Part shown: one piece after another, positions 31,537-34,371 of the stretch | Layout of the letters: each line of letters opens with the position of its first letter | How positions within the stretch are numbered: the first letter of the stretch is position 1 | NCBI GenBank assembly: GCA_013695435.1 | Contig: JACDAM010000134.1 | Location: 1-41,187, forward strand | Length of the DNA: 41,187 nt | Direction of reading: 5' to 3' | Origin: Burkholderiales bacterium | GTDB lineage: Bacteria > Pseudomonadota > Gammaproteobacteria > Burkholderiales > JACMKV01 | The notes under the pieces: generated by a model | The model's database searches: none | What the model was told of the DNA's origin: nothing | Seen by the model: the letters and a program-made list of their open reading frames with translations, nothing else | Made by a program: the position numbers and the translations under genes

Positions 31537-32328
31537 TTAAAAAACCTGCGACGGATAAACGCCAATGCTTGCAGTGTGAGTGACCAAGCCGGTCCCCTCA
31601 TCCCAGAAATGCAATTGAAATCCCGGAGGCTCCAGCGTGAATGCGGCGGGCCCATCCGGCCGCAGATCCAGTTTGATCTGGTGCGCCGTGCCCGGACAAA
31701 TCGACGCTATGGTTCCCTTGTAGCGCACCTGAATCGAGCGGTGCACATGACCGCACAGCACACGTTCAATCTGCGGATGACGCGCGATGATGGCGCCGAA
31801 CACGTCCGGATTGGCGAGGCTCATCCGATCCATGTGGCGAATGCCGGTCGGAAAAGGCGGATGGTGCATGAACACGACGGTGGGCTTGTCCGGCATTTCC
31901 CGCAGGCGGGCGTCCAGCCAGCCTAGCCGCTCCTCGCACAGCTCGCCGCCGGGCGCGCCCGCAATCACGGTATCGAGCGCAATCAGGCGCAACGGAAAAT
32001 CGTCGATCGCGTATTGCAGGAATTCACCGGCGCGCGGCAGATAAGTGTGATCGCGAAACGCGGATCGCAAAGCGCCGCGTTCGTCATGATTGCCGGGAAT
32101 CACAAACAAAGGCAGCGTGATCGGCGCCAGCAATTCGCGCACGTACGCGTATTCCCCGGCGCGGCCGGTTTCGGCAAGATCACCGGTGGCGAGTACGATA
32201 TCGGGCAGCGGCTCGCAACGCAGCAACTGCGCAACCGCGCGTTCGAGGCATATCGCAGTATCGACGCTGCGCTCGACGAGCTTGCCCGGCGCGTTAATGT
32301 GAAAATCTGTGATTTGAGCGATCAGCAT
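31537..32328 (-). CDS. CpdA-like calcineurin-type metallophosphoesterase
   Basis: A 263-residue cytosolic phosphoesterase with the dinuclear metal motifs D-x-H (Asp8, His10 in ITDFH), GD (49-50, LATGDLAETG), GNHDE (79-83), then FMHHPPFPTG and GHVHRS. The pattern resembles the 3',5'-cAMP phosphodiesterase CpdA and GpdQ group; the real substrate may be cyclic nucleotides or phosphodiesters. GGAGAGA precedes the ATG at 32328; the open frame begins six codons earlier. There is no signal peptide. Confidence 0.88.
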   Translation of the reverse strand: MLIAQITDFHINAPGKLVERSVDTAICLERAVAQLLRCEPLPDIVLATGDLAETGRAGEYAYVRELLAPITLPLFVIPGNHDERGALRSAFRDHTYLPRAGEFLQYAIDDFPLRLIALDTVIAGAPGGELCEERLGWLDARLREMPDKPTVVFMHHPPFPTGIRHMDRMSLANPDVFGAIIARHPQIERVLCGHVHRSIQVRYKGTIASICPGTAHQIKLDLRPDGPAAFTLEPPGFQLHFWDEGTGLVTHTASIGVYPSQVF

Positions 32329-32368
32329 GGCGTCTCTCCGCCGCATCTCTTACGCGCACATTCTACTC

Positions 32369-32591
32369 AGGGCCTGTTCACACATAAACATGCCCCGCGC
32401 TTGCTCTCGCGGGATGCGATGCGAGGCGGACGGCGCGCCGCAGGGCCATTCCCTGCAAGCGCCGGCCAACGGGGCAGCGCGCCCGCCAGACCAAAGCCCT
32501 TACGGGTTGCCCCCAAACCGGGCGCTCGCTTCGTCGCGATCATCCCGGTTTGGGGGCAACGCGGGACATGATTTATGTGTAAACAGGCCCT
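32369..32591. mobile_element. MITE-like element, 223 bp, with 20-bp terminal inverted repeats
   Basis: The ends AGGGCCTGTTCACACATAAA (32369-32388) and TTTATGTGTAAACAGGCCCT (32572-32591) are inverted repeats with one mismatch. Similarity continues inward (CATGCCCCGCG against CGCGGGACATG) for about 31 bp with one gap. Inside is a second, perfect 16-bp inverted repeat, TTGCCCCCAAACCGGG (32507-32522) and CCCGGTTTGGGGGCAA (32544-32559), with a 21-nt loop. No transposase is encoded. The GGGCCTGTT terminus recalls IS5-like ends, but I cannot assign a family. No clear target duplication (CTC against AAT at the flanks). Confidence 0.75.
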
Positions 32592-32748
32592 AATGCGCGC
32601 GGATACTTTTATGCATCGCCCTCTCACTCGGAAGCAAGTTCGCGCGAGCCGGGCGGGGGTCACGTAAATATCGCTCGCGGGTTGCACGAGCCCGTCTGCC
32701 CCACCGGCGGCATGGGAAAACTGCTGCCAATTACCGAGGAGCGCGACC

Positions 32749-34371
32749 ATGCAAGGCTTGATGATGGAGTTACCGCTGTCGATTTCGTCGCTGATCCAGC
32801 ACGCCGCGCGTTACCACAGCGACACGGAAATCGTATCGCGCACGGTCGAAGGCGGCATCTCGCGCTACACTTGGTGCGACGCCGAGCGGCGCGCCCGGCA
32901 ACTCGCGCAGGCACTGCTCGAGCGCGGCGTGCAGTCCGGCGAGCGCATCGCGACGCTGGCGTGGAATGGATTCCGGCACCTCGAGTTGTACTACGCAGTC
33001 TCGGGCATCGGTTCTATCTGCCATACCGTAAACCCGAGATTGTTTGCCGACCAGATCAATTACATCCTGAATCACGCCGAAGACACCCACGTTTTTTTCG
33101 ACCTGACTTTTCTGCCGCTGCTCGAAAAACTCGCACCGTCGTGCCCCGGTGTTCGCGCCTGGATCGTTATGACAGACGACGCCCACATGCCGGTTTCCAG
33201 TCTGCCGCATCTGCTTTGTTATGAAGACTTGATCGCCAGGCAATCCGGGGATTTCACATGGCCGCAATTCGATGAAAAAACCGCTTCGGCGCTGTGCTAC
33301 ACGTCCGGCACGACGGGCAATCCGAAAGGCGTGCTGTACAGCCACCGCTCGACCGTGCTCCACGCCTATGCGCTGGCCTTGCAAGACACGTCCGATCTTT
33401 CCGCCCGCGCGGTCGTGCTGCCGGTGGTGCCGATGTTTCACGTCAGCGCCTGGGGGATTCCGTATGCCGCGGCGCTGGTCGGCGCCAAACTCGTGCTCCC
33501 GGGCGCTGCGTACGACGGCGCCAGTCTGTACGAACTCCTCGAAAGCGAGCGAGTGACGGCAACCGCGGGCGTGCCGACAGTGTGGCTGAACCTGTTGCAG
33601 TACATGCGGCAGAATGGCCTCCGGTTTCGCACGCTGCAAACCGTGCTGATCGGCGGCGCCGCCGCGCCGCGCGCGCTGATCGAGGCGTTTCAGGAGGAAT
33701 TCGGCGTCAGCGTACGGCACGCCTGGGGCATGACGGAAACCAGCCCGCTCGGCGTTGCCAATACCTTCAAGAGCAAACATCTTGCGCGATCGAAAGACGA
33801 GCGTGATGAATTGCAAGTCAAGCAGGGCCGCGCGATTTGCGGCGTCGAAATGAAAATCATCGACGGCGAAGGCAGACAACTGCCGAACGACGGCAACGCG
33901 TTCGGCGATCTCATGGTCCGAGGCCCGTGGATCGCCGAACGATACTTCGGCGATGCCGAATCGGCGCTGGTCGACGGCTGGTTTCCCACCGGCGATGTCG
34001 CCACCATCGATGCCGATGGGTATCTGAACATCACCGACCGCTCGAAAGACGTGATCAAATCGGGTGGCGAATGGATCAGCTCGATCGCGCTCGAAAACAC
34101 CGCGGTCGCGCATCCGGCGGTCGCCGAGGCCGCAGTGATCGGCATTCGTCATACCAAGTGGGACGAGCGGCCGCTGCTCATCGTCGTCAAAAAGCCCGAT
34201 GCCGAATTGACGCGCGAAGAAATACTGAAATTCTTCGAGGGCAAGGTGGCGAAGTGGATGATTCCGGACGACGCCGTGTTCGTCGACAGCCTGCCGCACA
34301 CAGCGACCGGCAAACTGCTGAAGACGAAGCTGCGCGAGGAATTCAGGGATTATGCACTGCCGGCCGCGTGA
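32749..34371 (+). CDS. Acyl-CoA synthetase (AMP-forming), medium/long-chain or DmdB-like
   Basis: A 540-residue adenylate-forming ligase that activates a carboxylic acid to its CoA thioester with ATP. The P-loop is [11 protein letters not shown] (184-194). Later motifs are [40 protein letters not shown] and the C-terminal catalytic lysine region [16 protein letters not shown]. The N-terminus [23 protein letters not shown] resembles the AlkK and 3-methylmercaptopropionyl-CoA ligase (DmdB) subgroup; the natural acid cannot be told from sequence. GAGGAG stands 8 nt before the ATG. The promoter region carries the 223-bp MITE-like element about 160 bp upstream. Confidence 0.88.

Follow-up and report, generated by a model that had tools for sequence, protein, structure and literature searches.

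The stretch of DNA analysed here, 41,187 nucleotides of a Burkholderiales bacterium (the window), carries between the starts of a phosphoesterase gene and a ligase gene a 223-bp segment with nested inverted repeats, which a sequence-only reading had described as MITE-like. The question raised by this locus is whether the segment is a mobile element or, instead, a structured RNA or a regulator. Its parts and its surroundings are the following.

31537..32346, minus strand: calcineurin-like phosphoesterase, with its likely start at 32328 (by eye, from a same-genus orthologue)
32368..32369, no strand: CA as the left flank dinucleotide; among the flank pairs of the family, CA..TA ranks second in frequency (8/81)
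32369..32591, minus strand: whole element, short form; minus refers to the orientation of the family in which the arm with GCGTTG leads
32370..32388, plus strand: left terminal inverted repeat, whose outer 14 bp (GGGCCTGTTCACAC) are also IS ends
32401..32494, minus strand: hairpin arm 2 of the family plan, limits approximate
32497..32506, minus strand: central small hairpin, reading CCCGTAAGGG on the minus strand
32507..32563, minus strand: hairpin arm 1, shortened, with ~46 nt of its core missing relative to the long copies that this genome also contains
32572..32590, minus strand: right terminal inverted repeat, outer 14 bp GGGCCTGTTTACAC, with GCGTTG further inward (arm A)
32591..32592, no strand: right flank dinucleotide TA
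32597..32687, no strand: conserved block with 89% identity to the same-genus genome G001, where it lies beside the phosphoesterase without the element
32749..34371, plus strand: AMP-binding ligase, best NCBIfam match 3-(methylthio)propionyl-CoA ligase

The terminal repeats of the first description were confirmed at 32369-32388 and 32572-32591 (20 bp, 95% complementary), and their imperfect extension to about 31 bp is reached, by eye, with one 1-nt gap. The internal repeat (32503-32522 and 32544-32563, 20 bp, 95% complementary) has the 21-nt loop that had been claimed, but its longest perfect run measures 17 bp by eye instead of 16. Inverted repeats of 20 bp with at most one mismatch were found in none of 1000 dinucleotide shuffles of the 1001 bases at 32000-33000. 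Comparison with the family described below places the true ends at G32370 and C32590, in such a way that the outer A and T belong to a TA-like flank and the element measures 221 bp from outer G to outer C. As in a MITE, the element is short, is bounded by terminal inverted repeats and has no transposase gene, the open reading frames across it being mechanical only. Its predicted fold is very strong (z -10.3).

A search through the window's own genome (G000), of the kind that had been suggested as a check, showed that further copies exist besides that of the window. One other near-full copy (in contig C272) was detected with 94% identity, and five more (in C92, twice in C87, in C226 and in C58) were 91-94% identical over about the first 170 bp; fragments were also found, some of them at contig ends. 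Multiple dispersed copies, as expected of a MITE, are thus present in this genome. Counted from outer G to outer C, the copy in C92 and the two in C87 are 267-270 bp long and that in C226 is around 268 bp by eye, and the C58 copy is truncated at 179. The long copies carry in one arm an extra hairpin of ~46 nt, which is absent from C272 and from the window copy (C134), where the gap falls near 32533-32540. Short CGCG repeats border this hairpin (by eye), so that the short form could derive from one deletion that later spread or from two independent deletions. Among the six copies of the window type with readable ends in this genome, two (C87b and C58) have TA on both sides. For other elements, such as those at C226:28272-28465 (194 bp) and in C253 (174 bp), DNA searches show likeness of the ends only, and nevertheless their interiors match the family profile, which indicates that at least two element types coexist in this genome. 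Short elements of this kind are those at L070:773-966, at L071:876-1049 and at contig ends in L066 and L069; several of them lie at contig ends, as expected of repeats that break an assembly.

The presence of empty sites was also studied, and two loci, those of the window copy and of C272, were found without the element in one genome of the same genus (G001), as a MITE would leave them. In G001 the counterparts of window positions 31538-32365 and 32597-32687 are five bases apart, and when the flanks of the window are joined, their alignment passes through the site with small gaps where they meet; a clean single TA was not seen at this junction. The site of C272 is less tidy, with ~46 bases in G001 versus ~27 bases of C272 flank.

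Named genomes were scanned for the two ends at 215-245 bases from each other, allowing element lengths of 243-273. This paired-end scan gave at least 119 stretches, and the matches listed include 80 loci holding 81 distinct elements. The length of these 81 is 264-267 bp in 72 of them, and 265 or 266 in 57, so that, given the range scanned, the length peak is real within that range. By comparison of the sequences, the window element is a shortened member of this ~265-bp family. TA..TA flanks 59 of the 81 listed elements, CA..TA 8, TA..TG 7 and other pairs 7, and in 79 of the 81 there is TA or CA before the element and T after it. As judged by titles, around 72 of the 80 listed loci are beta- or gammaproteobacterial, with hosts that include Thiodiazotropha, Alcanivorax, Hydrogenophaga, Polaromonas, Variovorax, Achromobacter, Dyella and Lysobacter; the rest correspond to one zetaproteobacterial bin, one Kiloniellaceae bin, two Acidobacteria bins (three loci) and three unspecified Proteobacteria, and contamination is possible for loci that come from bins. 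In a phylum sample, GGGCCTGTTNACACT was found in 15 of 150 genomes (G000 among them) and its reversed control in 1 of 150. When 20 host genomes, chosen for holding an element, were counted for ends, the values lay between 1+1 and 81+82 and the control gave no hit. The exact subfamily pattern had no match in named genomes. Regarding plasmids, the window element and L144 gave no plasmid match and L205 gave one partial match, from Methylophaga; the end pair is present in three viral stretches. End pairs of other sizes exist as well (292 and 297; 160-251 and 278; 41; and 50 bp), the 41-bp one (L109:1474-1514) being a minimal hairpin with little beyond the two ends head to head, similar to a 50-bp pair in G139. 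Two of the larger end pairs in the fetched loci were IS copies; we took the others as ends of two different copies.

A candidate autonomous partner was found outside the window's genome. The outer ends of the element, GGGCCTGTTNACAC, match the ends of an 824-bp IS in genome G049, which has TA at either flank and contains two overlapping frames with DUF4096 and DDE_Tnp_1 above the cut-off, that is, a DDE transposase of the IS5 type. The best NCBIfam match of these frames is NF033580, each frame alone staying below the cut-off (105.4 and 102.2 versus 110 bits), and this type of IS would correspond to the IS427 group. Its likeness to the element is limited to the outer 14-18 bp, and the IS has no match to the interior profile. 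With at most one mismatch, TAGGGCCTGTTNACAC was detected in 16 of 60 genomes (G000 included), compared with 4 of 60 for the reversed control pattern. With the first IS frame as query against 120 genomes (G000 included), 5 were found at E <= 1e-20. Related transposases are surrounded by both ends in G063 (with mismatches), G123, G125 and G130, and by one end in G030 and G119, where the loci run to contig ends; the relative in G067 shows only a weak, one-sided end likeness. Among the 20 host genomes sampled, three have a transposase relative at E <= 1e-15, in all three cases between such ends and in one of them only 42% identical, and 17 have none at this threshold. Among the hosts with none is G120, the host of L137, with 81 forward and 82 reverse end matches and listed pairs that are often of 292 bp. 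The proposed matching of the ends to an autonomous IS succeeded in other genomes but not in the window's own assembly, which is fragmented in 302 contigs; in it, PF13340 gave no hits, and three PF01609 hits lack such ends around them, two of them being near contig ends. Of 72,556 plasmid records, 16 contain DNA relatives of the IS, and 11 of these 16 were assigned by reading to Burkholderiales genera.

The copies in the genome, the IS with the same ends elsewhere and the empty sites support the MITE reading, in such a way that the element is very probably a non-autonomous DNA transposon of a family living mostly in beta- and gammaproteobacteria. In its full length (~265 bp), an element would consist of two ends GGGCCTGTTNACAC at a TA-like target and, between them, two arms and a small hairpin at the centre. 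The ends would be bound by a DDE transposase of the IS5 type, encoded elsewhere, which would move the element to a TA, and the copies would spread without coding anything; we infer that the window copy, which has lost the core of one arm, was moved by such an enzyme. The flanks speak both ways. TA..TA prevails in the family (59/81), in favour of this mechanism; against it, the flanks of the window copy are CA and TA, TA is present on both sides in just 2/6 of the own-genome copies, and the junction in G001 shows no clean single TA. Other points against it are the failure to find a matching transposase in the window's assembly, the few host genomes sampled (3 of 20) with a relative of the IS transposase, and the likeness to the IS in the outer 14-18 bp only.

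The interior was then compared among foreign elements, ten of which adopt a common plan in their predicted folds: terminal stem, arm 1, small hairpin (CCCGNAGGG) and arm 2. This plan is common to the 65 of 81 elements for which alignment was possible. For this comparison the elements were oriented with the arm containing GCGTTG or CTGTTG first; 72 of the 81 were oriented by this GTTG rule, six of them by hand, and 9 were not orientable. Of the 72 oriented elements, 66 contain CAACCCGNAGGG within two mismatches, and 65 of these have it at position 124-128. Alignment A2 was built with 65 of the 81 foreign elements and 6 from G000, a selection by the central motif that favours the central hairpin, and the 16 others stayed outside the arm test. 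Seven of these (L139, L177, L183, L195, L209, L212 and L213) were left out for having no central motif at 124-128; four of the seven have it on the other strand, perhaps because they were wrongly oriented. The structure of A2 was derived from the same sequences and is therefore biased toward pairing; with this bias, 93.0% of its cells are paired (66.2% in shuffles, up to 45.6% when slid), two-sided changes are present in 1375 cells (415 in shuffles, up to 395 when slid), and the covariation score is 0.654 (0.172 and up to 0.132, respectively). The number of pairs with any two-sided change (59 of 77) is barely above that of shuffles (54.8, with 1/500 as high). The arm-2 core, when reversed, gave a mean local score of 11.5 against the arm-1 core, compared with 8.5 forward and 7.75 shuffled; this likeness lies more than 3 above the shuffle mean in 9 of 22 dereplicated elements and not in the other 13.

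A profile made from the 65 foreign elements, with no G000 sequence in it, recognised the window element at E 1.3e-9 (model positions 97-265). With 17 bp masked at each end, the same profile still gave E 1.8e-6 for the window element and 4.6e-10 for the masked long copy of C92, with no match in 5 shuffled windows or in the IS locus L091. The interior is thus conserved, and the narrow length range is kept despite a median pairwise identity of 52% in the family. The arm cores, AAGGCG against GCAACGCC, are mismatched and conserved as such.

According to our preferred reading, the interior would be a feature at the DNA level, the hairpins being kept matched largely through template switching, and the conserved core would aid transposition or host tolerance. 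As a tentative proposal, about which we have more doubt than confidence, this would be a long-lived non-coding transposon lineage across proteobacterial classes whose interior is itself selected, for instance as a DNA hairpin for the transposase or a host factor; what is selected would be, jointly, two inverted AAGGCG...GCAACGCC cores, the fixed CCCGNAGGG hairpin between them and a length that hardly varies. An alternative that opposes only this role of the interior accepts the MITE and attributes the pairing of the arms solely to homogenisation by template switching, with a functionless interior whose likeness reflects the common descent of a selfish element. Template switching can homogenise inverted repeats (PMC8794818, PMC8604942), and PMC8794818 deals with the creation and maintenance of hairpins by this route. 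This alternative agrees with the copies of C134 and C272, two loci where one arm is shortened, and with the modest difference between G-U and A-C in foreign elements and the lack of orientation preference detailed below. However, homogenisation should also erase the mismatched cores AAGGCG / GCAACGCC, and it leaves unexplained the conserved CAACCCGNAGGG and the narrow length at such a low median identity. We consider this account possible, although doubtful.

The strong covariation in both arms, added to the predicted fold, also made us consider an RNA gene, that is, a structured RNA or cis-regulator repeated by chance, with selection acting on the folded transcript. An RNA under selection is expected to favour G-U much more strongly than what was found. 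In the 65 foreign elements, G-U exceeds A-C by 205 to 127 of 4991 cells (101 to 47 in arm 1), on a structure chosen by rules that favour G-U, but the excess falls to 77 versus 52 in the 22 dereplicated elements, with 24 versus 26 in arm 2. By column pairs, G-U is ahead in 21, A-C in 14, and both are equal in 42. The six G000 copies show 28 G-U versus 6 A-C, as near-identical relatives with few independent events. The orientation with respect to genes is even, with 17 elements with and 15 against them among 32 oriented codirectional cases. In this count, 11 of the 81 elements were dropped for short flanks, 5 of the remaining 70 have no neighbour on one side, and ORFs were taken by a simple longest-first rule, 23 of the 70 elements having over 100 bp in common with one of these ORFs. 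At the gathering level Rfam gave no match in the window, and on 15 of the 80 family loci it gave only four tRNAs, all of them outside the elements; for one element the limit was relaxed to E <= 1, and the sole match was to a microRNA, far below threshold. The modest G-U excess over A-C and the even orientation support that the palindromes are mainly a DNA feature and not an RNA gene, and this is how we read the pairing of the arms. With the element also absent at the same site in G001, the RNA explanation is improbable.

A pair of REP/BIME-type palindromes moved by a RAYT tyrosine transposase, suggested by the layout of two inverted hairpin modules, is very improbable, as the ends (GGGCC) show no GTAG or CGTC foot and the TA-like target and the 14-bp ends are common with a DDE-type IS.

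Among known systems, the IS5-family IS with a DUF4096/DDE transposase (NF033580) have the outer 14-18 bp and the TA flanks in common with the family but, unlike it, they encode a transposase, and the IS locus fails the interior profile. The Correia/NEMIS elements of Neisseria target TA, and their ends are not known to resemble those of the family. They are likewise MITEs near genes, of similar size (204 bp), according to PMC10969869 and PMC3733652. ERIC sequences are small palindromic mobile repeats of many species, as are the members of the family, and PMC10969869 ascribes them to Enterobacteriaceae and Vibrionaceae. According to PMC11578231, MITEPye1 of Paracoccus yeei is also non-autonomous and has long stem-loops, but its ends match IS1182-family elements, unlike those of the family. 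In literature searches whose result lists were partly covered, many subscription papers being outside reach, no description of this family was recognised. MITEs of Polaromonas sp. JS666 were reportedly described by Mattes in 2008 and possibly belong to the family, which is carried by Polaromonas bins (L141 and L196); a plasmid of JS666 carries an IS 78% identical to that of G049. MITEs are generally regarded as what remains of a single IS at the level of the species, and here one plan appears in many genera at a narrow length, with 17 of 20 sampled hosts showing no relative of the likely transposase. The family thus offers a way to ask directly if selection acts on the interior of a non-coding transposon, and to what extent template switching of DNA can imitate RNA-like covariation.

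Regarding the insertion context, the element lies, as the sequence-only reading stated, between the phosphoesterase start (40 bp off) and the ligase start (157 bp off), with a plausible ribosome site (by eye) between the element and the likely phosphoesterase start. From there it may alter the expression of both genes, as that reading suggested. The ligase scores 934.7 bits against the 3-(methylthio)propionyl-CoA ligase model (cut-off 822), an enzyme connected with DMSP breakdown. Searched for an outward promoter, positions 32200-32800 contain 0 promoter-like sites (0.3 in shuffles), and 1 terminator-like site was found in the same interval (0.5 in shuffles). Judged against the sequence of G001, the insertion separates the phosphoesterase from its conserved upstream block. 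In G001 (L122, about 1434-2458), unlike in the window, another gene, methyltransferase-like by eye, lies between this block and the ligase.
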